Source: a bacterium
GTDB taxonomy: Bacteria > Gemmatimonadota > Glassbacteria > GWA2-58-10
Length of the DNA: 54,777 bases
Assembly (NCBI GenBank): GCA_021372515.1
Contig: JAJFUG010000083.1
Coordinates: 1-54,777, forward strand
Direction of reading: 5' to 3'
Shown: piece after piece, positions 35,299 to 54,030 of the stretch
How the letters are laid out: every line of letters begins with the position of its first letter
Numbering within the stretch: the stretch's first letter is position 1
The notes under the pieces: generated by a model
What the model was told of the DNA's origin: nothing
What the model saw: the letters and a program-made list of their open reading frames with translations, nothing else
Databases searched by the model: none
Program-made: the position numbers and the translations under genes

Positions 35299-35328
35299 GA
35301 AAAGATTCTACGGAAAGATGACCCGAGC

Positions 35329-36687: not shown

Positions 36688-36727
36688 GTGGGTGACAAGA
36701 CTGTGGCAGGGTGAGGTTTGGGCCTTA

Positions 36728-36892: not shown

Positions 36893-36928
36893 TGGTCGCC
36901 GGCCTGTACAGTGCTGCCCAGCGTTGTC

Positions 36929-36953
36929 GTAGGGGCGAACCTTGTGTTCGCCC
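36929..36953. repeat. GTAGGGGCG-type palindromic repeat in the nuoD-nuoE gap
   Basis: GTAGGGGCGAAC, centre CTT, then GTGTTCGCCC. Same family as 2616-2667 and 33561-33586. It lies 36 nt after the MITE-like element; the two account for much of the gap 36688-37026. The remaining bases show no recognised feature. Confidence 0.75.
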
Positions 36954-37026
36954 GGCTGGTCCCGATAATGGGTGAATCTGTAAATATAATGCGATTTTCA
37001 TTCACCGCCTTTCCACGGAAAGAACG

Positions 37027-37512
37027 ATGAAAACCGATAAGCCGATTGCGTTCAGCGACGAGCAGTTGCAACTGATCCGGAGCCTGATGCAGCGTCTTCC
37101 GGACCGCAAGGCCGCGCTGGGCGATGTCATACATATGGCCCTGGAGGAGTTCGGGTGCGTGAGCCCCGAGGCCGAGACTTACATCGCAGGCATCATGGAC
37201 CTGCCGGCCAGCTATGTCCACGAGGTGGTCACTTTCTACAACATGTACATCCAGGAGCCAGTGGGCCGTCACCACCTGATGCTCTGCGACAACGTGAGCT
37301 GCATGCTCTGCGGGGCCGAGGGACTGGTGGCGCACCTCAAGGAGCGCCTGGGGATAGAGCCGGGGCAGACCACGGCGGATGGCCGCTTCACGCTCTGGAC
37401 CGTGGAGTGCCTGGGCGCCTGCGAGATGGCCCCGGTGGTGCTGGTGGACCACAAGTTTCACGGAAACCTCACTGTGCAGAAACTCGACGAGCTGCTCGAC
37501 AGCCTGGAGTGA
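37027..37512 (+). CDS. nuoE: NADH-quinone oxidoreductase subunit E
   Basis: A 161-residue 24-kDa subunit with a thioredoxin-like fold that binds the [2Fe-2S] cluster N1a. Ligand pairs: CDNVSCMLCG (conserved CxxxxC type) and WTVECLGACEMAP. The helical N-terminal part has the usual GCVSPEAETYIAGIM segment. ATG 37027 follows GGAAAGAACG. Separated from nuoF by 3 nt, so the NADH-oxidising E-F-G module is tightly coupled. Confidence 0.95.
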   Translation: MKTDKPIAFSDEQLQLIRSLMQRLPDRKAALGDVIHMALEEFGCVSPEAETYIAGIMDLPASYVHEVVTFYNMYIQEPVGRHHLMLCDNVSCMLCGAEGLVAHLKERLGIEPGQTTADGRFTLWTVECLGACEMAPVVLVDHKFHGNLTVQKLDELLDSLE

Positions 37513-37515
37513 TAG

Positions 37516-38823
37516 ATGGGTCAGGTCAAGCTGATTACGAAATATTTCGAGACCCCGGGCTGCGAGAAGCTCCCGGTGTTCGAGTCCGTGGGCGGCTACT
37601 CCCGTCTGCGGCGGATAGTTGAGGAGGAATGGACCGGCGAGAAAATAATCGCCACGCTCAAGGCCTCCAGCCTGCGCGGCCTGGGCGGGGCCGGGTTCCC
37701 CACCGGCATGAAATGGGGTTTCGTGCCCAAGGATGCCGAGCCGCCCAAGTACCTGGTGGTGAACGCGGATGAATCGGAGCCGGGCACGTTCAAGGACCGG
37801 CACATCATCATGCGCGCGCCGCACCTGCTTATCGAGGGCCTGACAATCGCGGCCCTGGCCGTGGGTGCGCATGAGGTGTTCGTCTACATCCGCGGCGAGT
37901 ACTGGGAACCCTACCGGGTGCTGAAAAACGCCCTGGACGAGGCCAGGAAAGCCGGCTACGTGGGCGACAGGATCATGGGCAGCGGACGCAGCGTGCATGT
38001 GACCGTGCACCGCGGCGCCGGGGCCTATATCTGCGGCGAGGAAACCGCCCTTCTGACCAGCCTGGAGGGCTACAAGGGCTGGCCCAAGCTCAAGCCCCCG
38101 TTCCCGGCGGTCAAAGGCCTGTTCCGCCGCCCCACCCTGGTCAATAATGTGGAAACCCTCTCCTACGTGCCGGTGGTGCTGGATATCGGGCCGGAAGAGT
38201 TCGCCAAGGTGGGGATCGAGCGCAACGGTGGCGCGCGGCTGTTCGGGGTGAGCGGGCATGTCAACCGCCCCGGTATCTACGAGTGCGCCCTGGGCACCCC
38301 GATGCGCGAGGTGATCTACGACCTGGCTGGCGGCATCCGAGGCGGAAAGAAACTCAAGGCCGTAATCCCTGGAGGCAGCTCCTGCCCGGTGCTCACCCCG
38401 GCTGAGATCGACGTCTCGCTCGATTTCGACAGCCTGGCCAAGCTGGGCTCCATGCTGGGCTCGGGCGGGATGATCGTAATGGACGAGGACACCGACCTGG
38501 TCAAGGTGCTCTATAGGATTTGCAAGTTCTACTCCAACGAGTCCTGCGGCCAGTGCACCCCCTGCCGCGAGGGCACCGGCTGGATGACCCGGATCATGGA
38601 GCGTGTCTACCGCGGCAACGGCACGAGCCAGGACCTGGACAACCTGGTCGACATCGCCGAGATGATCGGCGGCAACACGATCTGCCCGCTGGGCGATGCC
38701 GCCTCTCTGCCGGTGATGAGCTTCATCCGCAAGTTCCGGCCCGAGTTCGAGGCCCGTCTGTCGCGCAAGTATGTCCCCTCGGGCGAGATCGCCTCGCCCG
38801 GTGCGGAAGGAGCCACCCGGTGA
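37516..38823 (+). CDS. nuoF: NADH-quinone oxidoreductase subunit F
   Basis: A 435-residue 51-kDa subunit that binds NADH, FMN and cluster N3. The glycine-rich NADH/FMN loop is LRGLGGAGFPTGMKWGFVP. FMN contacts lie in VNADESEPGTFKDR and AYICGEETALL. The N3 ligands are in ESCGQCTPCREGT, with the fourth Cys in TICPLGDA. The stop overlaps the GTG start of nuoG. Confidence 0.96.
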   Translation: MGQVKLITKYFETPGCEKLPVFESVGGYSRLRRIVEEEWTGEKIIATLKASSLRGLGGAGFPTGMKWGFVPKDAEPPKYLVVNADESEPGTFKDRHIIMRAPHLLIEGLTIAALAVGAHEVFVYIRGEYWEPYRVLKNALDEARKAGYVGDRIMGSGRSVHVTVHRGAGAYICGEETALLTSLEGYKGWPKLKPPFPAVKGLFRRPTLVNNVETLSYVPVVLDIGPEEFAKVGIERNGGARLFGVSGHVNRPGIYECALGTPMREVIYDLAGGIRGGKKLKAVIPGGSSCPVLTPAEIDVSLDFDSLAKLGSMLGSGGMIVMDEDTDLVKVLYRICKFYSNESCGQCTPCREGTGWMTRIMERVYRGNGTSQDLDNLVDIAEMIGGNTICPLGDAASLPVMSFIRKFRPEFEARLSRKYVPSGEIASPGAEGATR

Positions 38824-40457
38824 GCGGCGGCGAAACCAAAATGGTGAAAACCACCATCGACGGGCGCGAGTACGAGTTCGCCGAGGGCGCCACGATCCTG
38901 GAAGCGGCCAGGAGCGTGGGGATCATGATCCCCCACTACTGCTACCACCCGGGGCTGTCCATCGCCGGGGCCTGCCGCATGTGCCTGGTGGAGATAGAGA
39001 AGATTCCCAAGCTCCAGATTTCCTGCTACATGACCGTGGGCGAGGGCATGGTGGTGCACACGGACACCGAGCGGGTCAAGCGGGCGCGCAAGTCGATCCT
39101 GGAGTTCCATCTGGTCAACCACCCCACCGACTGCCCGGTCTGCGACCAGGCCGGCGAGTGCGGCTTGCAGGAATACTACATGCTCCACGGGTTGTACACC
39201 TCGCGCATCCGTGAGAACAAGGTCCGCAAGACCAAGAAAGCTTTCCCGGTCGGCCCCAATATCATGCTCGACCAGGAGCGCTGTATTCTGTGCAGCCGCT
39301 GCGTGCGGTTCTGCCGCGAGGTTTCGAAAAGCCACGAGCTGGGGATGTTCAAGCGCGGCGACCGCGAGGTGATCGACACTTTCTCCGGCCGTCAGGTGGA
39401 CAACCCCTACGCCGGCAACGTGGTCGATATCTGCCCGGTTGGTGCGCTCACCAGCCGCGACAGCCGGTTCAAGACCCGTTCCTGGTATCAGCAGACCGCC
39501 GAATCGGTCTGCCCGCGCTGCTCCCGCGGCTGTAACATCTTCATCCACTACAACATCAAGCGTCCCTGGAAGAACGAGGGCCGCAAGGTGGTGCGCCTGA
39601 AGCCGCGTTTCAACGCCGAGGTCAACAAGTGGTGGATTTGCGATGAGGGCCGGTTCTGCTTCAAGTATATCGATGACCCCGACCGCCTGAGCGCGCCGCT
39701 GCGCCGGGTGGATGGAGCGTCCGAGACAATCGACTGGCCCGCGGCCCTGGCAATAGCCGCCGAGCGTATGCTGGCCGCCGCCTCCGCGCAGGAGCGTGAT
39801 CTGGCCGTGCTGGTCTCGCCCCAGGCCTCCAACGAGGAGCTGTTCCTGCTCAAGAAAGTCTGCGATGAGCGCCTTCCCGGCTGGCGGGCCGCGTTCAGCG
39901 CGGCGACCCCGTTCGAGCCCACCGAGGATGACTTTCTGCGCCGCGCCGACAAGAACCCCAACACCTTCGGGGCGCGGGCTCTGGGCCTGGGCGAGGACAA
40001 GTCCATGGACCTGGCGCAACTGAAACGGGCCGCCCTGGAGGGCCGTATCGGCACGCTGCTGGTCTGCTACACCGACCTGACCGGCCTGACCGGCGAGGCA
40101 GGCCAGGGCTGGGACGCCGCCCTGGAGAAAGTGGACACCCTGATCTACCTGGGTCACAACGACTGTGCCACCGCGCAGCGGGCCGACCTTGTGCTGCCGG
40201 CCGCCACGTTCGCCGAGCGCGAGGGCACTGTGACCAATTTCGAGGGCCGCATTCAGCTCCAGCGCCGGGCGTTCGACCCAGCGGGCGAATCGCTGCCGGG
40301 CTGGGAAATCCTGCGCCGTCTGGGCGAGACCCTGGGCGGTGAGTACGAGTTCGAGGGGCCGGAGCAGGTGTTCCAGCGCCTGGCCGAAACGGTCCCGCAA
40401 CTGGCCGGCCTGAGCTACGAGTCAATCGGCCCGGCCGGCTGCCCGGTGAAAAAGTGA
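38820..40457 (+). CDS. nuoG: NADH-quinone oxidoreductase subunit G (short form)
   Basis: A 545-residue 75-kDa-type subunit. The [2Fe-2S] domain shows HYCYHPGLSIAGACRMCLVE. The His-Cys ligated cluster N5 lies in HLVNHPTDCPVCDQAGECGL. N4 ligands are in CILCSRCVRFCREV, with the last Cys in VDICPVGAL. The molybdopterin-like part begins CPRCSRGCN, which may hold an extra N7-type cluster, and is short (E. coli NuoG has about 900 residues). The start is GTG 38820 with AGGAG seven nt upstream, overlapping the nuoF stop (GTGA); ATG 38841 lacks a site. A frame extending back to 38520 is an artefact. Confidence 0.93.
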   Translation: MSGGETKMVKTTIDGREYEFAEGATILEAARSVGIMIPHYCYHPGLSIAGACRMCLVEIEKIPKLQISCYMTVGEGMVVHTDTERVKRARKSILEFHLVNHPTDCPVCDQAGECGLQEYYMLHGLYTSRIRENKVRKTKKAFPVGPNIMLDQERCILCSRCVRFCREVSKSHELGMFKRGDREVIDTFSGRQVDNPYAGNVVDICPVGALTSRDSRFKTRSWYQQTAESVCPRCSRGCNIFIHYNIKRPWKNEGRKVVRLKPRFNAEVNKWWICDEGRFCFKYIDDPDRLSAPLRRVDGASETIDWPAALAIAAERMLAAASAQERDLAVLVSPQASNEELFLLKKVCDERLPGWRAAFSAATPFEPTEDDFLRRADKNPNTFGARALGLGEDKSMDLAQLKRAALEGRIGTLLVCYTDLTGLTGEAGQGWDAALEKVDTLIYLGHNDCATAQRADLVLPAATFAEREGTVTNFEGRIQLQRRAFDPAGESLPGWEILRRLGETLGGEYEFEGPEQVFQRLAETVPQLAGLSYESIGPAGCPVKK

Positions 40458-40484
40458 TCCCCTGTTCCTGCGGAGCCTGACACG

Positions 40485-41582
40485 ATGTTTCCCGACATGC
40501 TGCCCGAAATCCTGATCGATACGGCCAAAGCCGGGGCGGTCCTGACCGGAGTGCTCTCTTTCGGCGGCCTCCTTACCTGGGTCGAGCGCAAGCAGAGCGC
40601 CCTGATGCAGGACCGTATCGGCGCCAACCGCGCGGACATCCTGGGTTTCCGCCTTCTGGGCCTGTTCCATATCATGACTGACGGCCTTAAGATGTTCATG
40701 AAAGAGGAGTTCATCCCGCGTACGGAGCACCGCGCCCTGTTCGTGCTGGCCCCGTTTATCGCCTGGACTTTCGCCCTGTTAGGCTTCGCGGTGATCCCGT
40801 TCTCCCCGACGATCACGGTGCTGGGCGCCGGGTTCTCGCTCCAGATCGCCAACCCGGAGATCGGCATTCTGTACGTGTTCGCCATGATGGGCATGACAGT
40901 ATACGGCGTGGTGTTAGGCGGCTGGTCGAGCAACAACAACTACGCCCTGCTGGGCTCGATGCGCGCCACGGCCCAGATGATAAGCTACGAGGTGGCCCTG
41001 GCCGCCGCGGCGGTGGGCCCGCTGCTGGTATACAACAGCCTTAACATGCAGCAGATCGTTCTCTGGCAGGGCGGCTATTTCCAGGGTTGGCTGCCGCTCT
41101 GGGGCATTGTGGTCCAGCCCCTGGCGTTCCTCATTTTCCTGACCGCCGGCACGGCCGAGACCAAGCGCATCCCGTTCGACCTGCCCGAGGGCGAGAGCGA
41201 GATCATCGGCTTCCAGCTCGAATACTCGAGCATGCGTTTCGGTGCGTTCATGTTCACCGATTTCGTGGAAAAGATACTCATCGCCTGCCTGGCCACCACG
41301 TTGTTCCTGGGCGGCTGGCAGGTTCCCTGGCTGTCCGACAGCGGTTTAGCTTTCGGCGGGGCGAGCGTGCTGCCCCTGGCGGCGTGGCTGGTCTGGGCGC
41401 TCCGTGCCGCGGCGTTCGCGGTCAAGGTCTGTATCGTGATCTACGTGCTGATGCTGGTGCGCTGGACCTTGCCGCGGTTCCGCTACGACCAGCTCATGCA
41501 CCTGGGCTGGAAATTCCTGTTGCCGCTGGCCTTTGCCAACATAATTGTCACCGCGATAGTTTTGGCGGTGCTGAATCTCTGA
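40485..41582 (+). CDS. nuoH: NADH-quinone oxidoreductase subunit H
   Basis: A 365-residue membrane subunit with eight or nine helices that links the peripheral arm to the proton-pumping arm and forms part of the quinone tunnel. Signatures: ERKQSALMQDRIGANRAD, SMRATAQMISYEVAL and ETKRIPFDLPEGESEIIGF, then EYSSMRFGAFM. Ends in LVRWTLPRFRYDQLM and a last helix. Start ATG 40485, 27 nt after nuoG. Confidence 0.96.
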   Translation: MFPDMLPEILIDTAKAGAVLTGVLSFGGLLTWVERKQSALMQDRIGANRADILGFRLLGLFHIMTDGLKMFMKEEFIPRTEHRALFVLAPFIAWTFALLGFAVIPFSPTITVLGAGFSLQIANPEIGILYVFAMMGMTVYGVVLGGWSSNNNYALLGSMRATAQMISYEVALAAAAVGPLLVYNSLNMQQIVLWQGGYFQGWLPLWGIVVQPLAFLIFLTAGTAETKRIPFDLPEGESEIIGFQLEYSSMRFGAFMFTDFVEKILIACLATTLFLGGWQVPWLSDSGLAFGGASVLPLAAWLVWALRAAAFAVKVCIVIYVLMLVRWTLPRFRYDQLMHLGWKFLLPLAFANIIVTAIVLAVLNL

Positions 41583-41646
41583 GTTCCGCCGCAAGCGGAG
41601 GCTGTTTTGGCCATCACTGTCAAAAAGATCGAGTTCCGCCGCAAGC
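41581..41646 (+). repeat. 16-bp direct repeat at the nuoH-nuoI junction
   Basis: GAGTTCCGCCGCAAGC occurs at 41581-41596, just at the nuoH stop, and again at 41631-41646 inside nuoI, where it encodes EFRRK. The two copies are 50 nt apart. This looks like a short local duplication that made part of the nuoI leader. Confidence 0.6.
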
Positions 41647-42173
41647 TCACTTTCCTGGAGCGTATCTGGCTGCCCGAGATTCTGCGCGGACTCTGGATCA
41701 CCAACCGTCATTTCGTGGTGAACCTCAGCCTGCACATCCTGAACGCCGTGGGGATCAAGACCCGGCGCAAGGGGGCGGTGACGATCCAGTACCCGGAGCA
41801 GCATCGCGGCTACCACTGGCGACTGCGCACCGCGCACTACCTGACCAGACGCGAGGGCGGCGGCCCGCGCTGTGTGGGCTGCATGATGTGCGAGACGATC
41901 TGCCCGGCCAAGTGTATTTACATCGTGGCCAAGGAACACCCCGACCCGGAGACCGAGAAGCAGGCCGCCAGCTTCACCATCGACATGGGCAAGTGTGTCT
42001 ACTGCGGCCTGTGCGTGGAGGCCTGCCCGGAGGACGCGATCCGCATGGACAGCGGCCACCTGGAGATAAGCTGCTACAGCCGCCAGGAGATGATGTATCC
42101 CATCGACCGGCTGCTGGCCACGGAGCACGACCCGGCCCCGTACAAGGACTACAAACGCTTTTTGCAGGAATGA
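41607..42173 (+). CDS. nuoI: NADH-quinone oxidoreductase subunit I
   Basis: A 188-residue ferredoxin-type subunit carrying clusters N6a and N6b. The two motifs are CVGCMMCETICPAKC and CVYCGLCVEACPEDA. The N-terminal amphipathic part (EILRGLWITNRHF) anchors it to the membrane arm. The start is TTG 41607 with GGAGG five nt upstream. It is the last nuo gene here; nuoJ, K, L, M and N do not follow, and a hairpin terminator comes next. Confidence 0.95.
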   Translation: MAITVKKIEFRRKLTFLERIWLPEILRGLWITNRHFVVNLSLHILNAVGIKTRRKGAVTIQYPEQHRGYHWRLRTAHYLTRREGGGPRCVGCMMCETICPAKCIYIVAKEHPDPETEKQAASFTIDMGKCVYCGLCVEACPEDAIRMDSGHLEISCYSRQEMMYPIDRLLATEHDPAPYKDYKRFLQE

Positions 42174-42204
42174 GTCGAGCGTGATTGACCCGTTCCCATT
42201 CATT

Positions 42205-42242
42205 CGCCGTTTACCGGCCGGGCCGGGGACGGCGTATTTATT
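42205..42242 (+). terminator. Probable terminator of the nuo operon
   Basis: CGCCGT (42205-42210) pairs with ACGGCG (42229-42234), with an inner CCGGC/GCCGG stem, followed by TATTTATTT. It starts 32 nt after the nuoI stop. Confidence 0.65.
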
Positions 42243-42268
42243 TCAGGACAGAGAGGAGAAGCGGCAGG

Positions 42269-42589
42269 ATGCTTAAGACCAGAGAGGAAACCGTTGTCAC
42301 CAACCTGGGCGGCGGCGTGGTGCGCCGGGTCTGCCTGAGCGCGGGCAAGCTGATGTCGGTGGAGTTCAGTTTCGAAAAGGATGCCCTGCTGCCGATGCAC
42401 AGCCATCCGCACGAGCAGGTGGGCTATATCGTGAGCGGCGAGTACGAGCTGACCGTGGGCGGGGAAACCCGGATACTGCAAGCCGGCGACAGCTACTACG
42501 CCCCGCCGGATGTGGTCCACGGGGCCAAGGTGCGCGAGGCGGGCAAGGTGCTGGACGTGTTCTGCCCGCCGCGGGAGGACTACCTTTAG
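42269..42589 (+). CDS. Small cupin-domain protein
   Basis: A 106-residue single-domain cupin. Motif 1 is PMHSHPHEQVGYIVSGEYEL (metal-binding His pair plus Glu). Motif 2 is GDSYYAPPDVVHGAKV, with the last metal His. This gives a full 3-His/1-Glu set, so a metal site is likely. The enzyme or binding role cannot be named. ATG 42269 has GAGAGGAGAA just upstream, which rules out a longer frame from 42185. Convergent with the sensor kinase gene (18-nt gap). Confidence 0.85.
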   Translation: MLKTREETVVTNLGGGVVRRVCLSAGKLMSVEFSFEKDALLPMHSHPHEQVGYIVSGEYELTVGGETRILQAGDSYYAPPDVVHGAKVREAGKVLDVFCPPREDYL

Positions 42590-42607: not shown

Positions 42608-45600
42608 TCAGCCGCCGAGGGCCTCGCGCAGCTTGCGGTGCAGCGTCTCGGCGTTGAAAGGTTTCTGCAGGAAAAGCACTCCCTGGTCCAGCACCCCGTG
42701 ATGCGCTATCACGTCATCCGTGTAGCCGGACATGAACACCGGGCGCACCTCTGGATGGATGGCCCTGACTTTTTCGAGCACATCCCGGCCGGTGCCGCCC
42801 TGCAGGATGACATCGGTGAGAAGGACTTGCAGTGGAGAGTTCGCGTTGGCCAGGACCACCGCCTCCTCCACGTTGGCGGCGATAAGCGCGTGGTAGCCCA
42901 GGTGGCCCAGCAACTGGCGCAGGGTTTCACGGACAGTAGGGTCGTCCTCGACCACCAGCACCGACTCGCCCTCGGCACGACGGCTCTCGGCCCGGGGCTG
43001 GCCGCCTGCCGCGACTGCGCCGGAGGCCGCCCGCGGCAGGTATATCTTGAACGTGCTGCCCACACCGACCTCGCTGTAAACCCAGATACTGCCGCCGTGC
43101 TGCTTGACTATGCCGTAGACCATCGACAGCCCCAGGCCGGTGCCGAACCCGACATTCTTGGTGGTGAAGAACGGCTCGAAAATCCTCCGGCGCAGCCCCT
43201 CGTCCATCCCGCAGCCGGTGTCGCTCACTGCCAGCTGGACATATTCACCGGGGGCCGCCTCCGGGTGGGTGCGGGCGTATTCCTCGTCCAGGTCGACATT
43301 GCCGGTCTCCAGGGTGAGAATCCCGCCCCCGCTCATCGCGTCCCGGGCGTTGACCGCCAGGTTGAGCAGCACCTGCTCCAACTGTGAAATATCGGCCTCC
43401 ACCATGTCCGGCGCGGCGCGCAGGAACGTCTCGACCCGGATATTCTCGCCGATCACGCGGCTGAGGATATTGGTGAACCCGAGCACGACCTCGTTCAGGC
43501 CGACTGTCTTGACCGAAAGGACCTGCTTGTGCCCGAAAGCCAGGAGCTGACGGGTGAGGTCGCGGGCCCTTTCCGCCGCCTTGAGGGCATCCTCCAGGCT
43601 GTCATCCGTGCCGCCGGTGATCCCGTCTTTGGGGGCCGACACTTTCGCCAGCTCCAGGCTGCCGATTATCACGGTGAGCAGATTGTTGAAATCGTGCGCC
43701 ACACCGCCGGCCAGGCGCCCCACCGACTCCATTTTCTGCGAATGGGACAGCATCGATTCGAGCTCGCGCTGCTGCTGCTCCAGTTTCTTGCGCTCAGTGA
43801 TATCACGGGCCACGCCCTGGGTGCCGATAAAAGAATCGTGGTTCGGTTTTTCTGCCTGGTAGAGTCCCTCGGCGTCAATAAGGAATACCGGTTGTTCCTG
43901 TGTCACCTCCTCTGAATGGACCTCGAAATCCATGCTTTCGCCTGATTTCTGCATCAATCTGATTTCCAGAGAACGCGTGCGGCGCTCACGGGTGCGGCGT
44001 TCGTTGATCCGGTGAACGGCCCTCTGCCTGTCTTCCGGGTGCACGAACTCCAGTATCCCGCGACCGAGCATCTTCTCGGGCGTATAGCCGTAATTGCGCA
44101 CCGCGTCGTTTATGAAAAGAATCTTCCCCTCGGGATCGAGGCGGTAGACAATGTCCGGGATGGTCCGGAGGATCGATTCGAGAGTGCGCTCGCTGCGCAG
44201 GAGGGCTTCCTCGGCCAGCTTGCGGTCGGTGATGTCCTCCCCCGAACTGAGAGTGAACGCCACGCGGCCGTCATTGCCTCGGATCTGCGTGGTGTGCCAG
44301 GCGATTATCCGTTCCTGGCCCTGGCTGTTTATCACCGTGTTCTCGTCGTATTCGACGAACCCGGTCCTGCCGTTCATGATCTGCCTGAAATATTCGCGCA
44401 ACCGGTCGCGGTCTTCGGCCGGCACGAAATTGTCCACCCAGTCGAGGCCCAGCACGTTTTCCCGCTGGTGGCCCAGGATCCGGCAGCCGGTCTGGTTCAG
44501 GTCGGCGATCCGGCCATTGGAATCGAGGATCAACAGGATCACTGCCACAATATCGAAATATTTCTGCGCCCGGTCCCGTGTTTCCATGATCCGCTTGTCG
44601 GATTCGATCCGGTCGGTGATATCACGGGCGGCGGCGAAAATCAGTTTCTCCTGGTATGGGACCGAGCGCCATTCCACCCAGCGATAGGCGCCTTCCTTGC
44701 AACGGTAGCGGTTGATGAAATTGGAGACCACCTTACCCTCGCCCAGCTTGCGCAGCTCGATCAGGGTCGTGCCGACATCCTCGGGATGGACGAACTCGAT
44801 GAAACGCTGTCCCTCCATCTCCTTGACCGGATAACCGAGCACCTTGGTCCAGGCCGGATTCAGCCGGTGGATGACGCCCTCGGTGTCCGCGATGCAGAAC
44901 AGGTCCGGGGACACGTCGAAAAACATGTCGAGTTCCTCGGTTTTCTGCTTGAGTTCCGCGGCGGCCTGGACTTTCTCGGTATCGTCCAGACACAGCCCCA
45001 TGACCCTTTCCACCTCGCCCTTCTCGTTCTTCAGCACATCGCCGCGCAGACTGATGAACCTGATTCTGCCGTCCAGCAGACGGATACAAAAAGTCTCCAC
45101 GAGGTGAAGCTTTTCCCGTACGATCGAGTTGAAACGCTCCTGCAATCTTATCCGGTCCTGGGGGTCGATTGCGTTGCGAAGGAAATCCTGGCGTTTCTCG
45201 GGAGCGACCCCACCCGCCTGAAATATATCGAGCACCCGGTCGTCCCACGACATTTCACGGGTGGCGAGGTTGTAGCTCCAGACACCGGCGGTTGCGGCAT
45301 CCAAAGCCAGGTTGAGGCTCTCCTGTTTCTCGCGCAACTGCTCCGCGGAGCGGGCCGATTCGGTCAGGTTCTCGTACATCCCGACCAGTTCCACTGCTTT
45401 CCCGCTCTTGTCGCGCAGGGGGGATATGAACAGCCGCACCGGCACCCGTGAGCCGTCCTTGTGCCTCCGGTGGGTCACCAAGCCGCTTATCGACTCACCC
45501 GCATTCATCTTCTGGACATTGGCCCTGATTTCATCGATTTTGTCAGGATTTTCGGTTTGCAGATTCCTCCCGAGCACCTCGGCGGCGGTCCAGCCAAACA

Positions 45601-45736
45601 TGGCCTCGCACGCCCGGTTCCATCCCAGGACCCGGCCCTCGGTATCAAGACGGATAATCGCCAGAGGAGATTGATCCACCAGGGACTGGTACCGTTCGAG
45701 CAATATTCTAAGGTTTTCCCGTTCTGAGCGCGGCAT
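42608..45736 (-). CDS. Multi-PAS hybrid sensor histidine kinase with receiver domain
   Basis: A protein of about 1042 residues with no membrane segment. Five PAS domains follow each other: about 15-125 (SPLAIIRLDTEGRVLGWNRA), 135-260, 265-380 (VSPDLFCIADTEGVIHRLNP), 390-510 and 515-650 (IPDIVYRLDPEGKILFIND). A coiled coil leads to the HisKA H-box GGVAHDFNNLLTVI. The HATPase shows NLAVNARDAM, DTGCGMD and GTGLGLSMVYGI. The C-terminal receiver has VVEDD, phosphoacceptor LLTDVIL and KPF. The HDFNN form is the HisKA type typical of cytosolic PAS kinases. The ATG at 45736 is preferred over a TTG at 45778. The regulated target is unknown. Confidence 0.9.
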   Translation of the reverse strand: MPRSERENLRILLERYQSLVDQSPLAIIRLDTEGRVLGWNRACEAMFGWTAAEVLGRNLQTENPDKIDEIRANVQKMNAGESISGLVTHRRHKDGSRVPVRLFISPLRDKSGKAVELVGMYENLTESARSAEQLREKQESLNLALDAATAGVWSYNLATREMSWDDRVLDIFQAGGVAPEKRQDFLRNAIDPQDRIRLQERFNSIVREKLHLVETFCIRLLDGRIRFISLRGDVLKNEKGEVERVMGLCLDDTEKVQAAAELKQKTEELDMFFDVSPDLFCIADTEGVIHRLNPAWTKVLGYPVKEMEGQRFIEFVHPEDVGTTLIELRKLGEGKVVSNFINRYRCKEGAYRWVEWRSVPYQEKLIFAAARDITDRIESDKRIMETRDRAQKYFDIVAVILLILDSNGRIADLNQTGCRILGHQRENVLGLDWVDNFVPAEDRDRLREYFRQIMNGRTGFVEYDENTVINSQGQERIIAWHTTQIRGNDGRVAFTLSSGEDITDRKLAEEALLRSERTLESILRTIPDIVYRLDPEGKILFINDAVRNYGYTPEKMLGRGILEFVHPEDRQRAVHRINERRTRERRTRSLEIRLMQKSGESMDFEVHSEEVTQEQPVFLIDAEGLYQAEKPNHDSFIGTQGVARDITERKKLEQQQRELESMLSHSQKMESVGRLAGGVAHDFNNLLTVIIGSLELAKVSAPKDGITGGTDDSLEDALKAAERARDLTRQLLAFGHKQVLSVKTVGLNEVVLGFTNILSRVIGENIRVETFLRAAPDMVEADISQLEQVLLNLAVNARDAMSGGGILTLETGNVDLDEEYARTHPEAAPGEYVQLAVSDTGCGMDEGLRRRIFEPFFTTKNVGFGTGLGLSMVYGIVKQHGGSIWVYSEVGVGSTFKIYLPRAASGAVAAGGQPRAESRRAEGESVLVVEDDPTVRETLRQLLGHLGYHALIAANVEEAVVLANANSPLQVLLTDVILQGGTGRDVLEKVRAIHPEVRPVFMSGYTDDVIAHHGVLDQGVLFLQKPFNAETLHRKLREALGG

Positions 45737-46057
45737 CGAGGAGGTCTCGTCTTCCGGGATTATTATTTCTCGAAACAACTGCTGAGGATAGTCTCAAAGT
45801 ATTTCTATTTTCTGGAAAGCGCTCTTCAGGTTTTTCGGCTATTTTATCTACAAAACCAACCGCTTATTCAAATTACAATTTCTATTCAAATAAAAATAAT
45901 CAATACACAATGTACTTTTCAACTGAATGTACGGTTTTTATTCAGCCGAGTAAATGCGCCCCCGAAAAATCGGTCCGGGAGGACAATAATTTGATAAAAA
46001 AAGGGGGCGGCTGAAAACTCCGTCCCCTCTGGCAATTCAAACGTCACTGCCCGTCAA
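45737..46057. other. AT-rich intergenic region upstream of the sensor kinase
   Basis: A 321-base gap, far richer in AT than its flanks (about 45780-46000). It must hold the kinase promoter; TTGAAA and TATTTT with an 18-nt spacer near 45900 is a weak candidate. The right end carries the terminator of the phosphofructokinase operon. Confidence 0.5.
45996..46027 (-). terminator. Terminator of the four-gene sugar-phosphate operon
   Basis: On the minus strand GGGGACGG (46020-46027) pairs with CCGCCCCC (46003-46010), with one A-C mismatch, followed by seven T residues (45996-46002). It starts 31 nt after the phosphofructokinase stop codon. Confidence 0.85.
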
Positions 46058-47263
46058 TCAGGCTTTCACCGGATGGTAGGCCAGACGGGCCATGCTGGGC
46101 AGCGGACCGACCAGCGGCTTGAGGTATTCGACGAACTCCGGTGTGACAAACATGCCCGAAGCGTCGATATACTTGTCAGGCATGGGCTTGGAATGCACGG
46201 CCACCTCGGCCAGGGGCGCGGTGCCCAGCTTGGTCTGGTACTCGTGCCCGTCCTCGCGCAGCAGCGAGACCATCAGGCCGCTCTTGCCCTCGGCCGCCAG
46301 TTCCACGGCTTTCTGGCCGCAGAGGAAAGCCTCGGCCACGTCCAGCGCACTGGTGCGGTCGGAGCCGCACATCTGCAGCGACTCGACCACCTGAAACTCG
46401 CCGCGCCAGCCGAACTTTTCCGAGATCATGCGGTGCAGCATCATGGCCGCACTGGTGCCGCCCATGGCGCCGAACTCGACGTTGCCGAAACGGTCGCGGG
46501 TCTCGGAGGCGCTCACCGGACGGCCATCCGCGTAGGCGATGCCCTCGCCGCAGGCAATGGAGACGAAGCCGTATTTCTTATGGCACTCCTCGACTTTGGC
46601 CAGGAACTTGTCCTTGTCGAACGGGCGCTCGGGCATCAGGATGATGTGCGGCGGGTCGCATTCGCAGCGCTTGGCCGCGACCGAGGCGGCGGCCAGCCAG
46701 CCGGCATCGCGCCCCACGGCCTGGTAGATCACGTACTGGTCCACTTTCTGCATGTCACGGGCCAGCAGTCCGCCTTGGAGCACCGAAAGGGCCACGAAGC
46801 GGGCCGCGCTTCCGTAGCCCGGCGTGTGGTCGGTGCCGTGCAGGTCGTTGTCCACGGTCTTGGGGATACCGATCCCGCGCAACTCGTAGCCGTTAGCCAC
46901 ACAATATTTCTCGACCCGGTTGATCGTGTCCATCGTGTCGTTGCCGCCGATCATGAAGAAATAGCGGATGTTGAATTTCTCCAGAACCTGGCGTATCTTC
47001 GGGAAATCCTCGTCCTTCAGCTTGTGGCGGCTGGAGCCCAGCGCGCTCGAGGGAGTGAGCCGCAGCGCCGCGATCACGCTGGGGTCTTCCTTCTTCAGGT
47101 CGATCAGGTTTTCCTGCATGAACCCCTCGATGCCCCAGCGCATGCCGTAGACACCGGTGATGAAATCCTGGCGCACCGCCATCTCGACCACGCCGCAGAG
47201 GCTGGCGTTGATCACCGAGGTCGGTCCGCCGGATTGCCCGATAATCGCGTTACCCTTCAACAT
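46058..47263 (-). CDS. 6-phosphofructokinase, PPi-dependent type
   Basis: A 401-residue group II phosphofructokinase. The phosphate-donor loop reads GGNDT (106-110); the Asp at 109 replaces the Gly that ATP enzymes need. PKTVDND (134-140) has K135 where ATP enzymes have Gly. These two residues together mark pyrophosphate-dependent enzymes. D138 is the catalytic base. The enzyme would interconvert fructose-6-P (or possibly tagatose-6-P) and the 1,6-bisphosphate reversibly. ATG 47263 has GGAG eight nt upstream. Last gene of the operon with aldose epimerase, HAD and AgaS-like genes. A much longer frame to 47836 overlaps AgaS antisense composition and is not real. Confidence 0.9.
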   Translation of the reverse strand: MLKGNAIIGQSGGPTSVINASLCGVVEMAVRQDFITGVYGMRWGIEGFMQENLIDLKKEDPSVIAALRLTPSSALGSSRHKLKDEDFPKIRQVLEKFNIRYFFMIGGNDTMDTINRVEKYCVANGYELRGIGIPKTVDNDLHGTDHTPGYGSAARFVALSVLQGGLLARDMQKVDQYVIYQAVGRDAGWLAAASVAAKRCECDPPHIILMPERPFDKDKFLAKVEECHKKYGFVSIACGEGIAYADGRPVSASETRDRFGNVEFGAMGGTSAAMMLHRMISEKFGWRGEFQVVESLQMCGSDRTSALDVAEAFLCGQKAVELAAEGKSGLMVSLLREDGHEYQTKLGTAPLAEVAVHSKPMPDKYIDASGMFVTPEFVEYLKPLVGPLPSMARLAYHPVKA

Positions 47264-47301
47264 CGATCCACTCCGTAAGTTTTGGGTTGCCCTTGATCCG
47301 T

Positions 47302-48513
47302 TCAGCCGGCGATCACTTTCAGCGAGCCGTCGGCCTGAAACGCCGGGTGATCGTAGATTTTCACACCCTGCACCACACGCGTAATCACACCCTTCTCCGA
47401 GGGGCTGTCCGGCTTCAGTCCCACGCTCAGCGACTTGAACACGCCCAGCGACTGGCCGACAATCACATAGGCCGGGCTGAGGTAATCGTCCGGGATGTCG
47501 CAGCCGTGCTCGATCACCAGGTCGGCGGCGGCTTTCGTGTCGGCGTCGGCCTTGCGGCAGACCGCGATCTTCTTCATCCCGATACCCTTGTGTTTGACCC
47601 CGTTCATCAGGTCCAGCTCGTAGCGGTGCACCAGCGGCTCCTCGCTCATCAGGTAGACCACCAGGGTGTTGGAGTGGATCACCGCCTCGGGCCCGTGACG
47701 CAGGCCGAGGAAGCTGTCGAACTTGGCCACCACCTTGCCGTCGGTCTCCTCCTGCAGCTTCAGGTGGCACTCCTTGGAGCAGCCGTACAGCGTGTTGGAG
47801 CCCAGGAACACGGCGCGCTCGAAAGCGGCGGCGCACAGGGCCTCCAGGTCACTGGTGTACTGGGTGAGTATTTTGCGGCCGGCCGCGGCCAGGTTCGCCA
47901 CCACTTTACCGTAGGCCACGCTATCCTTGATCGAGGCCAGGTACTGGCCGGCGATCACCATGCTGGAGAACGAGCTGGTCATGGCCAGGGATTCATCATT
48001 CGTCTTCTCGGGCAGCAGGATGGTCAGGGCGCGGTCCTTCTTGGCCTGGCTCATGATCGCCAGCTTGCCGTTCTTGTTGCAGGTGATGACGATGTGCTTG
48101 ATATCGGCCTGGCTCTGCTCGCCCAGCACGAACGTGCCCACGCTCTCCGGGCTGTTGCCGGAGCGGGCGAAATGGACCAGGAAATATTTCTTGCCCGGGC
48201 GGAACGTGGCGGCCGGGTCGGTGATGATCTCGGTGGTTCCGACCGCGCGGGCCTCGTAGCCGCTGACCTTGTTGAACAGGTTCTCCAGGCAGATGCCGAT
48301 GAAAGCGCTGGTGCCGGCGCCGGTGAGCAGGAACTTGCGGTCGGTCTCGTTGCCCAGGAAAGCGAGGATCTGGCTCTTCATGCCCTCGCAGATTTTATAG
48401 GTCTGTTCCCACATCTCGGGCTGCTGGTAGATCTCGGCCGGAGTGTGGCGGGTGCCCCGCTTGTCTTTCTCGGCATCCGGGGCCTGGATCAACTTGATCA
48501 TTGCATCTGCCAT
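47302..48513 (-). CDS. agaS: AgaS-type SIS-domain sugar-phosphate isomerase/deaminase
   Basis: A 403-residue protein with two SIS domains. The first has LLTGAGTSAFIG (about 61-72) and VHFARSGNSPES. The second has ERAVFLGSNTLYGCSKECHL and the segment DSFLGLRHGPEAVIH. The overall plan follows AgaS, the galactosamine-6-phosphate deaminase/isomerase that gives tagatose-6-phosphate. It differs from GlmS in lacking the glutaminase domain. Start ATG 48513 with AGGAG about ten nt upstream. The gap to the phosphofructokinase gene is 38 nt. If the assignment is right, the phosphofructokinase may act on tagatose-6-P; no aldolase or deacetylase is adjacent. Confidence 0.8.
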   Translation of the reverse strand: MADAMIKLIQAPDAEKDKRGTRHTPAEIYQQPEMWEQTYKICEGMKSQILAFLGNETDRKFLLTGAGTSAFIGICLENLFNKVSGYEARAVGTTEIITDPAATFRPGKKYFLVHFARSGNSPESVGTFVLGEQSQADIKHIVITCNKNGKLAIMSQAKKDRALTILLPEKTNDESLAMTSSFSSMVIAGQYLASIKDSVAYGKVVANLAAAGRKILTQYTSDLEALCAAAFERAVFLGSNTLYGCSKECHLKLQEETDGKVVAKFDSFLGLRHGPEAVIHSNTLVVYLMSEEPLVHRYELDLMNGVKHKGIGMKKIAVCRKADADTKAAADLVIEHGCDIPDDYLSPAYVIVGQSLGVFKSLSVGLKPDSPSEKGVITRVVQGVKIYDHPAFQADGSLKVIAG

Positions 48514-48577
48514 CTCAACAATCTCCTGACTTCGGTTAACGGATATAGAAACAGATATAGCTGATGTCCAAAGGTCC

Positions 48578-49726
48578 TTATTTGCCGCCGGCGATACGGT
48601 GCGCCTCGGAGACCGCCAGGGCGAAATCGCGCACATCGATCGGGTTGAACGAGGGGATTTTCTCGTCGCGGGCGATCTTCTCGGCGCTGGAGGCTTTCTG
48701 TGCCGCCATCAGGGTGCGGGTCAGAGTCTTGGGGATGTCGCTGCGCTTGTCACCGATGATGATGCTGAGGAAATCATCGTTGCCGAACGCCTCGCGGCCG
48801 AAAGCACGCAGGCCGGCATCCTTCGAATAGTTGCCCTTCTCCACGGCCGGGGCGATCAGGTCCACGCCGAAATCCTCGTATACCAAAGCTTTGCGCCCGG
48901 AGCGCTTCTCGAACGCCGGTGTCACCGCCTTGAGGGCCTCGAAATCGAAACCGGCCTTGTCCTGGTCATCGATCCAGATCACGTAGTCGGCGCCCTCCAG
49001 GGCCACGCGCACCGAGATCAGGGGATGGGTCTTGATCAGGGCCTGGTAGACCCCGGGCATGTTGGACAGCTCACTGGAAAAGCGCACCTTGGCCCCGCCG
49101 GCGCTCAGGGCGGCCTTGCTGCCGCCTGCGGTCATGGCGTCACAGAGCTGCCCGGCCGTGGGACGGCGTCCCTTGACCAGCGGGTGCTGCAGCACGTTGC
49201 CGTTGCGGTCGCCCTCGATGTAGATCGCGCCGGCGCCGGTGGAATAATTGCCCTGGAACGCCACTTTCACGCCCTGCTCGGCGGCCGCGCCCAGGACATC
49301 CCGCACGAAATTGCAGGCCTCGGTCTCGTTGTACGGGTACAGGTAATTGAACCTGCCGCCACGCTCGTAGACCATGCCGTACTCGCCCACCGTGCCCAGC
49401 TTGTCCACGCCCAGGCGGTTCTCCTTGAAGAACTCCATGGACTTGAGGTCCCAGCCCGTGCAGAGAGTGACCTCGATGCCGGCGTTGTCGATCAGGTACT
49501 CGATGGCCGTGTTGGCCCCGGGGTACGGGGTCAGCTCGGAGTCATCACAGTCGACAATCGGTCCGTTCACGTCCAGCCCGCAGACAATGTTGCCCGAAAT
49601 ATCGCGGCCCGATTCGCGGCTCACCGCGAGGATGTCCTGGATCAGGGCGACGAGTTTCTGCTTGTCCAGGCCCAGCTTGCCGGCCATCGCTACGGCCTTC
49701 CCGGACAGCTCAATTGATGCAGACAT
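48578..49726 (-). CDS. HAD-superfamily protein with altered motif I
   Basis: A 382-residue HAD protein of the Cof/sugar-phosphatase type (C2B-like cap). Motif I reads GLDVNGPIVD, so the nucleophile is D52 but the usual general-acid Asp at +2 is N54. Motif II Thr is T90 (TLCTGWD). Motif IV is IIIGDKRSD with D326 and D330. A cap insert runs about 110-300. The first 45 residues form an extra helical lead. The Asn change may slow phosphate release or signal another reaction. ATG 49726 follows GGAGGAAG. It sits between the epimerase and AgaS genes, so a sugar phosphate is the likely ligand. Confidence 0.8.
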   Translation of the reverse strand: MSASIELSGKAVAMAGKLGLDKQKLVALIQDILAVSRESGRDISGNIVCGLDVNGPIVDCDDSELTPYPGANTAIEYLIDNAGIEVTLCTGWDLKSMEFFKENRLGVDKLGTVGEYGMVYERGGRFNYLYPYNETEACNFVRDVLGAAAEQGVKVAFQGNYSTGAGAIYIEGDRNGNVLQHPLVKGRRPTAGQLCDAMTAGGSKAALSAGGAKVRFSSELSNMPGVYQALIKTHPLISVRVALEGADYVIWIDDQDKAGFDFEALKAVTPAFEKRSGRKALVYEDFGVDLIAPAVEKGNYSKDAGLRAFGREAFGNDDFLSIIIGDKRSDIPKTLTRTLMAAQKASSAEKIARDEKIPSFNPIDVRDFALAVSEAHRIAGGK

Positions 49727-49798
49727 TCTTCCTCCATCGACGGATTGCGTTGTGGTTGACAGACACGGCTCTCTCTGCGGCGCTGCAGGCACGCCCGG

Positions 49799-50758
49799 TC
49801 AGGCGATTCGGGGAGTGACCGTGATCGTGCGCTTGTCGCTGCAGCCCGGCTCCAGCTTCACTACCCCCAACTTCTTGTCAAACGTCTCCTGCTCCTCATG
49901 ATCGTCCATCCCCTGCCAGGGCTCGATGCAGATGAACTCATCGCCCGGCTCGGACCAGAGCCCCAGGTGCGGGAAATCCGGGAACTCCATGCGGATCGAC
50001 ACACGGGAGGCCGGGTCCTCGAGGGTGAGATGACGCATCTCGGGGTCCTCGACACCGAACATCAGGGTGGCCTCTAACTCCTGCTCGGTCCAGACCAGCG
50101 GGCCGCCCACGGTGATCTCGCTGCTCTTTCCGGTCAGACGGCAGTGCTCGTTGTTTTCGTATTTGGTGATCTTGCCCTTGGGCAACAGGATACGGCAGTC
50201 GGTCTTGCTGCCCTTGCCGCTGAACACGGGGGTGGCAAACCCCGGGTGCCAGCCGAACTGGTAGAGGATCGTTTCACGGCCGGGGTTGGTGACCTCGAAA
50301 GTGGCGGCCAGGATGTTGCCGATCAACTCGTAGACCAGGTCGAGCTGGAAATCGAAGGGGTAAAACTGGCGGATCTCGGAGTTGGGCTTCAGACGGTAAC
50401 GGATCATCGCCCGCCCGTCATGGCTCGTCTCTATCAGGTCGAAAGTGCTGTGGCGGGCGAAACCGTGGTTGCCGCGGGTGGAGATGACCTTGTCACCCAA
50501 CAGGCTTTTCTTGTCCTTCAGCCCGCCCACGATCGGGAACAGGATCGTGGCGTGGTTTTTCCAGCCTTTTTCCGGGGCCTCAACCAGGCTGTCGCGCCAA
50601 AGCAGCGGTACACTCTGTCCACGGGCAGCGTCATGGATTCGATAGCCGATGACTTCACAACCGTAACGGTTGATCGTCACTTCACTTTTCTCGGTCTCGT
50701 TAACCAGACGGTCGATTTTTCGCTCGTTGTCGATTATCACGACATAGGATCCCAGCAT
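49799..50758 (-). CDS. Aldose 1-epimerase family protein
   Basis: A 319-residue protein of the galactose mutarotase-like fold. Features: FPIVGGLKD (near 75) and RGNHGFARHSTFDL, the His segment that binds the sugar ring; YQFGWHPGFATPVF, the second His; and the base region FICIEPWQGMDD with the conserved Glu. The arrangement is closer to the LacX/YeaD-like branch than to classical GalM, so it may act on a phosphorylated or amino sugar. First gene of the operon, with a promoter and leader hairpin upstream. The short leader (residues 1-20) seems unique. Confidence 0.85.
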   Translation of the reverse strand: MLGSYVVIIDNERKIDRLVNETEKSEVTINRYGCEVIGYRIHDAARGQSVPLLWRDSLVEAPEKGWKNHATILFPIVGGLKDKKSLLGDKVISTRGNHGFARHSTFDLIETSHDGRAMIRYRLKPNSEIRQFYPFDFQLDLVYELIGNILAATFEVTNPGRETILYQFGWHPGFATPVFSGKGSKTDCRILLPKGKITKYENNEHCRLTGKSSEITVGGPLVWTEQELEATLMFGVEDPEMRHLTLEDPASRVSIRMEFPDFPHLGLWSEPGDEFICIEPWQGMDDHEEQETFDKKLGVVKLEPGCSDKRTITVTPRIA

Positions 50759-50870: not shown

Positions 50871-50899
50871 AATCTAACACCCTTTTTAGTTCAAGTCAA
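50871..50899 (-). promoter_or_regulatory. Promoter of the epimerase-HAD-agaS-PFK operon
   Basis: On the minus strand the -35 box TTGACT (50894-50899), a 17-nt spacer and the -10 box TAGATT (50871-50876). The predicted start near 50864 gives a leader of about 106 nt. Confidence 0.65.
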
Positions 50900-50963: not shown

Positions 50964-51668
50964 ATGCAAATCCACCGTCAACAACTGCTGACCGGGGCTG
51001 CGGCCGCCCGCGACACCGCGATCATCATCGATGTCTTCCGGGCCTACACCTGCTCGAGTTTCCTGCTGAACGCCGGAGTGGAGCGGGTGATCCTGGAGGA
51101 GGACCCGGAGCGCGCCCTGGCGCTCAAGCACGAGCACGGCTGGCTGGCCCTGGGCGAGGTGAACGGGGTGATGGTGGAGGGTTTCGACCTGGGCAACTCG
51201 CCCAGCGACATCGTGGCGGCCGGGGACAAGGTCCTTCGCGGACGCACCGTGGTGCAGCGCACCTCGGCCGGGGTGCGCGGCGCGGTGGCCGCGGCGCAGC
51301 ATTGCAGCCAGGTGTTTGTCGGGGCGTTCACCACCGCCGCCGCCCTGGCGGCCGTGGTGCGCAAGCTGAACCCGGCGGAGCTTCATATCGTGGCCATGGG
51401 CTGGAACGCCCTGGAGCCGATGCCCGAGGACGAGCGCTGCGCCGACTACATCCAGTCTCTGCTGGAGCCGGGCCGGCCCTACGACCACGTGGCCGCGGTG
51501 CATGGCATCCTGAGCCACGAGAGCGCCCGCAAGTTCCTGCGCGGCGACAAGCCCCAGTTCCCGCCCACGGATGTCACCTGGTGCCTGCTGCGCGACCTGT
51601 TTCCCTGGGCCATCCGGGTGGAGCGCACCGAGTTGGGCCTGGAGCTGCGCAAGACGCCGGTGGAGTAA
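50964..51668 (+). CDS. ComB-family 2-phosphosulfolactate phosphatase-like protein
   Basis: A 234-residue protein matching the ComB family: IIIDVFRAYTCSSFLLNAG, the motif GFDLGNSPSDI and RTSAGVRGAVAA, then VGAFTTAAALAAVV. The archaeal enzyme removes phosphate from 2-phosphosulfolactate in coenzyme M synthesis. Bacterial homologues are widespread without that pathway, so the substrate here is unproven. ATG 50964 has no clear ribosome site. Divergent from the epimerase operon; transcribed alone and ended by the hairpin at 51689. Confidence 0.85.
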   Translation: MQIHRQQLLTGAAAARDTAIIIDVFRAYTCSSFLLNAGVERVILEEDPERALALKHEHGWLALGEVNGVMVEGFDLGNSPSDIVAAGDKVLRGRTVVQRTSAGVRGAVAAAQHCSQVFVGAFTTAAALAAVVRKLNPAELHIVAMGWNALEPMPEDERCADYIQSLLEPGRPYDHVAAVHGILSHESARKFLRGDKPQFPPTDVTWCLLRDLFPWAIRVERTELGLELRKTPVE

Positions 51669-51810: not shown

Positions 51811-54030
51811 TCAGCGTAGCGTGCTCTCGCCGGTGCTGACCCGCAACTCGGCCAGGTCGGGCCCGGGCGCGTCGCTCACATGGCGCTCCATCACCTCGAG
51901 ACGCAACCGCAGGTCCTGCAGCGGGGTCTTGTAGATGAACGGGGTCTCCTCCACAGCCGAAATGTGGAAAAAGTTCGTCCGGCTGGATTCGAACAGGGCG
52001 ATCCAGTCGCGGGTGTTGCCCGTTTCGTCGGCGATGGCCTGGGACATTTTCTTTTTCTGCTCCGCCCTGTCCCCCTGGCCCAGCAGGTAGCGGTTGATCG
52101 CGGCCTGGGCGGCGAAACTGTTGCGCAGGGTGCGCATGAGCAGCAGCAGAGCCCGGTAGCGGTCGCGCTGGTCCTCCACTGCTTTCAGTTTCTTCTGGGA
52201 GCAGGCCTTGTTCAGCAGGCCCAGGGTCAGCTCCAGCTTGGGCAGCACCCGGCGGTCGTAGCCGGCCACCGTTTCCTCCATCCGCTCCTCGCTGTACATG
52301 CGGATACCGCCCTCGAAAGCCAGGTTCCGGCGCGCCACATCCCACTCCAGGGTGAACACCGCCCGCTCGAACGCGGCCAACTCGTCCTGGTTCAGCTTCG
52401 AGAAATCCGGGACGAGCGGACGGGTGATCCAGCGGGCCTGGGTGGCGCAGGGGCCGCAGTGGTACCAGTTGGTGGCGGGCCAGTCGCGCAGGGCCTGCTC
52501 GCCGGCCTGCCAGGCATCCACCAGAAGAGCGGCGGCGCGCTTGTCGCCCTCGCACCAGTCCAGGGCGCGCGCGAAAATGAAACCGTGGAAATCCGGTATC
52601 TCCCGTTCGCGCACCAGCTCGGCGTATACATCGTGGTTCACCGCGTAGGGGCACTGCGGCGGCGAGTAGATACCGCCCCGGGTGAAAAAGCGTTTCAGTT
52701 CCAAGGCCTCCAGGCTGGCGAATTTTTCGCGCACCAGCCAGGGGAACTGGATGCCGAATACCGGTTCCAGGTCCCACCAGGAGGAAATCACCACCTCGCC
52801 GGCCGGCTCCTTGCCGTGGGCGCGGTCGAACGGCAGGTAGGCGCCGGCTCCGGAGGCCGGGTCGGCGCCGCAGAGGATGCCGGAGGCGCTGCCGGTCAGC
52901 GGATGGGTGAGAGTCACCCCCGCGGGCAGGGCCGGGATAATTTTCTTCCACTCGTTCTCAAGGTACTCCCAGCCGATCTCCATCAATACTTGAAAGCGCG
53001 GGTTGATTTTCCGCCCAGCGACCGCCAGGGCGCCCGAGAACTCGGCCGCCATCTGCTCCAGGGGCTTGGAGCGGGCCAGCCAGCTGCCGTTGGGCCCGAA
53101 ATACAGCCCCTCCATGAACGGCAGGCCCGAGCCGCTGTCGCCGGTCCAGAACACCAGATAGCGCAGGTCGGGCAGGGTCTGCATCAGGCGGGTGAGCATC
53201 TCGGCATAGTGCTCCAGCACCCGCGGATGGGCGATGTCCAGGGCGTAGCGCGGCTGGAGGCTGCGCCCGGGGTGGTCGGTGCGCGAACCGCGCAACTGCG
53301 GGTTCTTTTTGAAGAAAGCCTCGTTCACGCTGCGCGGCTCGTAGCAGACAAACCCGGTTTCCATCCCATAGGCGCGGGCCAGCGAGGCCGCTTCGGCCAG
53401 GTCGGCCAGGTTGTGCTCCAGTTCCTCGGCCGGGTACAGCCCGGCGGTGAGCGGGCTTTCCACGAACGCGTCCAGCGCCGGGGCGTAGCTCAGGTACCAG
53501 GCGTAGGAGTCGCTGGGAAATTCACGGTTACGCACATGCCAGCCGCCGCTGTCGGCGTAGCGGTTGATCTCCACTGCGGTGTGGCCCATGCGGGCCAGTT
53601 CGCGGATGTGCTGCCGGCGGTCGAAGCCCTCGGTCATGCGGTACCACTGGTTGAGGGTGTTGTCCCACATGGTGAAGCGTTCTTCGAAACGGAACGTGGA
53701 GAACCGCCCAGTCTCCCGCGCCGGGTTGGCGATCCAGCCCAGGGTGGCCCGGCAGAGGCTGCGCGGGGCGCTCCCGGCGATAACAAGTCCGCCGCCGGAC
53801 TCGGCCACGGCCTCCCACTCGCCGGAGGTGTCCCGGCCGGCGCTCAGGGCGGCCACGGACGGCTGGGCCAGGCCGCTTTCACCCGTAAGAAGCACTATTT
53901 CGTTACGCGCCGGCGCCTGGACAGTCTCACGCTCCACGATCTGCACCCCGATGGCTGCGGCCAGCTCCTCCGCCGCGGTGCGCACCGGAAGGGCCGCTCC
54001 GGCCTGAATGACCACTCTACCGTATTTCAT
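51811..54030 (-). CDS. Large cytoplasmic glycoside-hydrolase-like protein
   Basis: A 739-residue protein with no signal peptide. The first 110 residues (VRTAAEELAAAIGV, then RNEIVLLTGESGLA and GGGLVIAGSAPRSLCRATLGW) resemble the small alpha/beta domain that precedes GH20, GH67 and GH84 barrels. A TIM-barrel-like middle (about 115-460) has HIRELARMGHTAVEINRYA and YLVFWTGDSGSGLPF. The C-terminal 280 residues are helical and rich in Trp and Arg. GH67 (alpha-glucuronidase) and related families share this plan. I could not fix the catalytic residues, so the activity is unassigned. ATG 54030 has AAGGGAAAA upstream. Acts alone; the gene lies 143 nt after acpS. Confidence 0.65.
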   Translation of the reverse strand: MKYGRVVIQAGAALPVRTAAEELAAAIGVQIVERETVQAPARNEIVLLTGESGLAQPSVAALSAGRDTSGEWEAVAESGGGLVIAGSAPRSLCRATLGWIANPARETGRFSTFRFEERFTMWDNTLNQWYRMTEGFDRRQHIRELARMGHTAVEINRYADSGGWHVRNREFPSDSYAWYLSYAPALDAFVESPLTAGLYPAEELEHNLADLAEAASLARAYGMETGFVCYEPRSVNEAFFKKNPQLRGSRTDHPGRSLQPRYALDIAHPRVLEHYAEMLTRLMQTLPDLRYLVFWTGDSGSGLPFMEGLYFGPNGSWLARSKPLEQMAAEFSGALAVAGRKINPRFQVLMEIGWEYLENEWKKIIPALPAGVTLTHPLTGSASGILCGADPASGAGAYLPFDRAHGKEPAGEVVISSWWDLEPVFGIQFPWLVREKFASLEALELKRFFTRGGIYSPPQCPYAVNHDVYAELVREREIPDFHGFIFARALDWCEGDKRAAALLVDAWQAGEQALRDWPATNWYHCGPCATQARWITRPLVPDFSKLNQDELAAFERAVFTLEWDVARRNLAFEGGIRMYSEERMEETVAGYDRRVLPKLELTLGLLNKACSQKKLKAVEDQRDRYRALLLLMRTLRNSFAAQAAINRYLLGQGDRAEQKKKMSQAIADETGNTRDWIALFESSRTNFFHISAVEETPFIYKTPLQDLRLRLEVMERHVSDAPGPDLAELRVSTGESTLR

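Follow-up and report, generated by a model that had tools for sequence, protein, structure and literature searches.

The window (the whole analysed stretch of 54,777 nucleotides, which makes up one of the 222 contigs of a 4.9 Mb genome) carries four genes for sugar enzymes whose arrangement as an operon is genuine and conserved among uncultured Glassbacteria. The last of them encodes a phosphofructokinase (PFK) homologue that keeps the pyrophosphate (PPi) donor site and has a rebuilt acceptor pocket. From these sequences, we see an even chance that it acts as a PPi-dependent phosphotransferase on a new sugar acceptor, with the SIS-domain isomerase of the operon as its partner in a specialised, family-level sugar route. 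If true, a textbook family would gain a new acceptor specificity through this clade, and the fact that the clade is paired with SIS isomerases of two kinds would define a specific, assayable pathway. It would also be a caution that not every gene annotated as 'diphosphate--fructose-6-phosphate 1-phosphotransferase' need encode a fructose-6-phosphate enzyme.

Operon structure and conservation

The four genes occupy positions 46058-50758 of the minus strand in the 5' to 3' order epimerase, HAD-like, SIS and PFK (Table 1). The preliminary description had placed them on one strand with gaps of 38-72 nt, a promoter upstream and a terminator downstream, and this layout holds. The gaps are 72 nt between epimerase and HAD-like, 64 nt between HAD-like and SIS and 38 nt between SIS and PFK, and a purine-rich ribosome-binding site precedes each of the four ATGs. 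The PFK reading frame can be extended upstream to 47836; its start was set at 47263 by homology and the ribosome-binding site. The plausible promoter, a consensus match only, is located some 113 nt ahead of the ATG of the epimerase gene, and the region contains six promoter-like sites where shuffled sequences lead one to expect 1.2. A simple terminator scan gave no match on the 3' side of PFK; folding shows a G+C-rich hairpin followed by seven T just past the PFK stop. No Rfam riboswitch match was found upstream of the operon. We infer that the four genes are co-transcribed.

Table 1. Features of the operon and its divergent neighbour, with positions in the window
Feature	Position	Strand	Basis or remark
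Terminator-like hairpin with T run, downstream of PFK	45993..46033	-	fold -17.2 kcal/mol, z -2.34
PPi-dependent phosphofructokinase homologue, remodelled acceptor pocket	46058..47263	-	NF010675, residue table, tree
SIS-domain sugar(-phosphate) isomerase/deaminase	47302..48513	-	AgaS-like, outside AgaS cut-off
HAD-like protein, 382 aa	48578..49726	-	motifs only, without known family
Epimerase	49799..50758	-	aldose 1-epimerase (mutarotase) homologue
Sigma-70-like promoter TTGACT-17-TAGATT, TG before -10	50871..50899	-	consensus match only
2-phosphosulfolactate phosphatase (ComB) family gene, divergent	50964..51668	+	PF04029 5.6e-33

Genes for the HAD-like and SIS proteins are present in all six genomes of the same family. 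The survey of gene order that had been proposed as a check came out in favour of the operon: the order divergent ComB-like, epimerase, HAD-like, SIS and PFK is kept in the six Glassbacteria genomes wherever the contig is long enough, and the ComB-like gene adjoins the epimerase in every family relative whose contig reaches that far. When the genome collection was searched for close relatives with the HAD-like protein as query, the named ones were three Candidatus Glassbacteria MAGs and one genome labelled Gemmatimonadales. Among 395 genomes of the phylum, the HAD-like gene was found only in the six family genomes and in none of the other 389; a SIS gene of the operon kind (E <= 1e-40) was likewise not found outside these six. 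Plasmids and viral contigs contained no distant relatives of the HAD-like protein. In two relatives (G003 and G005) the flanks are syntenic as well, and Complex I (nuo) genes lie beyond PFK, so the family-internal order may partly reflect vertical inheritance and is not strong evidence by itself.

The Complex I cluster (nuoBCDEFGHI-like, 34055-42589, plus strand), in which a cupin gene comes last, is oriented convergently to the operon, and its synteny extends to relatives. A large multi-PAS hybrid histidine kinase gene (42608-45778, minus strand) separates the two in the window and is not so placed in G003 and G005. On the other side, a 739-aa protein encoded at 51811-54030 (minus strand) matches no Pfam or NCBIfam family and looks by eye like a glycoside hydrolase whose N-terminal part is hexosaminidase-like; its neighbourhood to the operon is not kept in relatives.

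Donor site and acceptor pocket of the phosphofructokinase homologue

The PFK protein, 74-80% identical across the Glassbacteria family, matches Pfam PFK (2e-44) and scores 432.6 bits against the PPi-PFK model NF010675, above its curated cut-off of 273. The set to which we aligned it comprises E. coli PfkA plus 24 further PFKs, among them same-genome paralogues and plasmid-borne relatives; these 25 comparison sequences are a sample and not the whole family. Asp at position 104 and Lys at position 124 (E. coli numbering, used hereafter) are the PPi-donor signature (PMC12203962); they correspond to D109 and K135 of the operon PFK and are kept in all clade members. The operon PFK resembles the PRK14072/NF010675 subfamily of PPi-PFKs (e.g. 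PDB 3k2q, 3hno) in length, in the GG-N-D and PKTVDND donor motifs and at the equivalents of D127, R171 and E222, all of which are kept; its identity to the plasmid-borne members that were found is at most about 40%. The earlier placement of a PPi-type PFK and an AgaS-like SIS protein in one operon with a conserved neighbourhood is supported.

The difference from this subfamily lies in the acceptor site. In E. coli-type PFK, His249, Arg252, Arg162 and Arg243 interact with the 6-phosphate of fructose 6-phosphate (PMC7319554), and high conservation across PFK-A is ascribed to the fructose 6-phosphate site (PMC11609450). The operon PFK carries E289, S295, M298 and V183 at the positions of R243, H249, R252 and M169, which rebuilds the pocket for the 6-phosphate. 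Known PFK-A diversity resides mainly in the phosphate donor. Glu243, Ser249 and Met252 are found in seven of seven clade members from two families, where the M169 equivalent is Val or Ile; none of the 25 comparison enzymes lacks Arg at 252 or a basic residue at 243. Since position 249 is naturally variable and 162 lacks a reliable alignment, the pocket claim rests on 243 and 252. None of the aligned plasmid PFK relatives carries the signature. Loss of the two clamp residues makes tagatose 6-phosphate or fructose 6-phosphate an unlikely acceptor, and the earlier suggestion that the PFK converts tagatose 6-phosphate to the 1,6-bisphosphate probably does not stand, given Glu and Met at these positions throughout the clade.

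PFK-SIS pairing in a second lineage

In the phylum search, the same PFK clade occurs in one other, distant genus, g42 (genomes G068, G166, G422 and G423), whose PFKs carry the same pocket residues; the joint clade has a support of 100/100 in the tree. There the PFK gene is located immediately upstream of a SIS-domain gene. The SIS proteins of the two lineages are not orthologous: a two-sequence comparison gives 27% identity over 150 aa (E 0.005), and the g42 protein is weakly GlmS/NagB-II-like by profile. No epimerase or HAD-like gene was seen in the g42 stretch examined around the pair. That the PFK is paired with different SIS subfamilies supports a functional PFK-SIS link, and suggests the pair as the core of a shared pathway on better evidence than within-family synteny, though in two lineages only.

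The g42 pair also adjoins genes for a 687-aa protein without Pfam or PDB match (L066:6986-9049) and for a glutamine-amidotransferase-like protein (L066:9046-9879), and both neighbours are kept within the genus where contigs reach.

Metabolic context

The window genome encodes two other PFKs, one of the ATP type and one PPi-PFK paralogue, and no genome checked lacks a further PFK; those aligned, including the second PFK of G068, keep R252. Each of the four family genomes tested has a canonical phosphoglucose isomerase (PGI). One class II aldolase is encoded in the window genome, and the family genomes are alike in this respect. With these enzymes available, the operon PFK need not serve core glycolysis, and the operon is probably an extra, dedicated route rather than the main glycolytic one. 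Two other roles are rejected on the same data, namely SIS as a stand-in for PGI and the operon PFK as the sole PFK.

A rival reading is an ordinary additional PPi-PFK. Two other arginines never vary in the clade: R303 and R287, the latter at position 241, where most PPi-PFKs are basic. They might bind a phosphate in a shifted pose; if the 6-phosphate were gripped in this way, the enzyme would still use fructose 6-phosphate, and the SIS protein would feed it hexose 6-phosphate. A family-model score far above the cut-off and the phosphate loop kept in SIS (see below) agree with such a role. Glu243 and Met252 in every clade member, however, are hard to square with a phosphate at this place, and both the other PFKs, at least one in each genome checked and with R252 kept in those aligned, and the canonical PGI of the family genomes speak against it. 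We regard this role as unlikely, though not remote.

The SIS protein

The SIS protein matches Pfam SIS (4.4e-9) and PDB 3odp (6e-66), is 33% identical to E. coli AgaS, and shows 33-37% identity over nearly its full length to the AgaS galactosamine-6-phosphate deaminase/isomerase family (TIGR02815; PDB 3odp, 3c3j). Aligned with E. coli AgaS, it keeps the phosphate loop RSGNSPES as well as E...LK..E and RHGP, and thereby the catalytic E/K/E/H pattern. It differs from the AgaS family in a TIGR02815 score of 312.3 bits, below the curated cut-off of 529.2, in the lack of aga/kba genes or a PTS nearby and in having a PPi-type enzyme as its partner. Its naming as AgaS-type in the preliminary description is upheld by the catalytic pattern and the phosphate loop and not by the family score. 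The kept phosphate loop speaks for one or more phosphosugars among the intermediates.

A tagatose route would have the AgaS-type protein convert galactosamine 6-phosphate to tagatose 6-phosphate and the PPi enzyme produce tagatose 1,6-bisphosphate. The AgaS-like SIS with its conserved catalytic pattern, the LacX-like mutarotase and the single class II aldolase of the genome are in line with it. Against these stand the lost 6-phosphate clamp, the SIS score below the AgaS cut-off and the composition of the operon. No deacetylase, PTS or tagatose-bisphosphate aldolase was found among the operon and adjacent genes scanned, so their absence, as claimed earlier, is accurate for the operon; for aldolase it does not extend to the genome. 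G068, which has the same PFK, yielded no class II aldolase match. Taken together, a tagatose route seems very doubtful.

Epimerase and HAD-like protein

The epimerase scores 56.9 bits against PF01263 (Aldose_epim; 2.8e-15), above the gathering score of 27, and is 58-62% identical within the family. It is closest to LacX-like galactose mutarotase-related proteins (PDB 3dcd, 4e-29). The lactococcal-type lac/tagatose pathway has the LacX mutarotase and so shares with the present operon a LacX-like epimerase among sugar genes; no LacA/LacB, LacC, LacD or PTS gene accompanies it here.

The HAD-like protein has no Pfam, NCBIfam or PDB match. It displays four HAD-like motifs (I DVNG, II LCTG, III SKDAGL, IV GDKRSD) with the spacing of HAD subclass IIB sugar phosphatases and mutases (Cof/YbiV, OtsB, PMM), and D52, N54, T90, K302, D326 and D330 are invariant in six of six homologues. 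It departs from that subclass in lacking a family-level match and in having DxN instead of DxD in motif I: the second Asp is Asn (D52-V-N54) in all six, leaving the HAD phosphatase Asp pair incomplete, so the protein may not be a standard phosphatase. An hhalign comparison with three E. coli HAD-IIB proteins gave a weak match over motifs I-II only (E 0.014, probability 3%), and the AlphaFold model, built from five sequences, is unusable with a pLDDT of 47.7. Membership in the HAD superfamily is likely from the motifs but unproven.

A putative PPi-dependent sugar route

In the route that we favour, SIS would isomerise (or deaminate) an aldose or amino-sugar derivative, and the PFK homologue would transfer phosphate from PPi to a sugar hydroxyl. 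Neither fructose 6-phosphate nor tagatose 6-phosphate would serve as the acceptor, given the rebuilt 6-phosphate pocket. The mutarotase may supply the right anomer and the HAD-like protein may act on a phosphorylated intermediate; the order of these reactions is presumptive. The invariant R287 and R303 and the phosphate loop kept in SIS count against this route.

The new acceptor could also be a sugar without any phosphate. As a kinase that uses PPi to phosphorylate a free hexose or amino hexose, the PFK homologue would take the mutarotase-handled sugar first, and SIS would then isomerise the resulting sugar phosphate. Such a kinase would suit the lost phosphate-binding charge and the new Glu, the presence of an enzyme for free aldoses within the operon and the phosphate loop kept in SIS, and would account for the missing PTS, deacetylase and aldolase. 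We know of no PFK-A enzyme that phosphorylates free sugars, which weighs against this reading, as do ROK-family matches in the genomes (several in the window genome) that may include sugar kinases; we find it improbable. A broader version, in which a PFK-A branch has turned into a PPi-dependent kinase for a sugar without a 6-phosphate (e.g. a free hexose or amino sugar), is coupled to different SIS isomerases in two lineages and provides PPi-driven sugar entry without ATP cost, is a conjecture of similarly low probability.

A sulfoquinovose route was considered in view of the mutarotase, SIS isomerase, kinase and nearby 2-phosphosulfolactate phosphatase and was set aside: we found no literature link in the papers searched, and a sulfonate would be expected to need the lost arginines too.

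Several PFK relatives have features of their own. In G001, one TGA interrupts the match to the PFK paralogue (contig C171, L063), which may reflect a frameshift or an end artefact. A Phyllobacterium plasmid PPi-PFK homologue (L071:8986-10152) adjoins a sugar ABC transporter and an NAD(P)-dependent oxidoreductase. The Candidatus Chlorohelix plasmid PFK (L072:6905-8185), of the same subfamily, reads GGNG, with Gly instead of Asp at 104, and is located in a sugar ABC transporter/fucose-isomerase-like cluster; this residue and setting suggest that it may use another substrate or donor.
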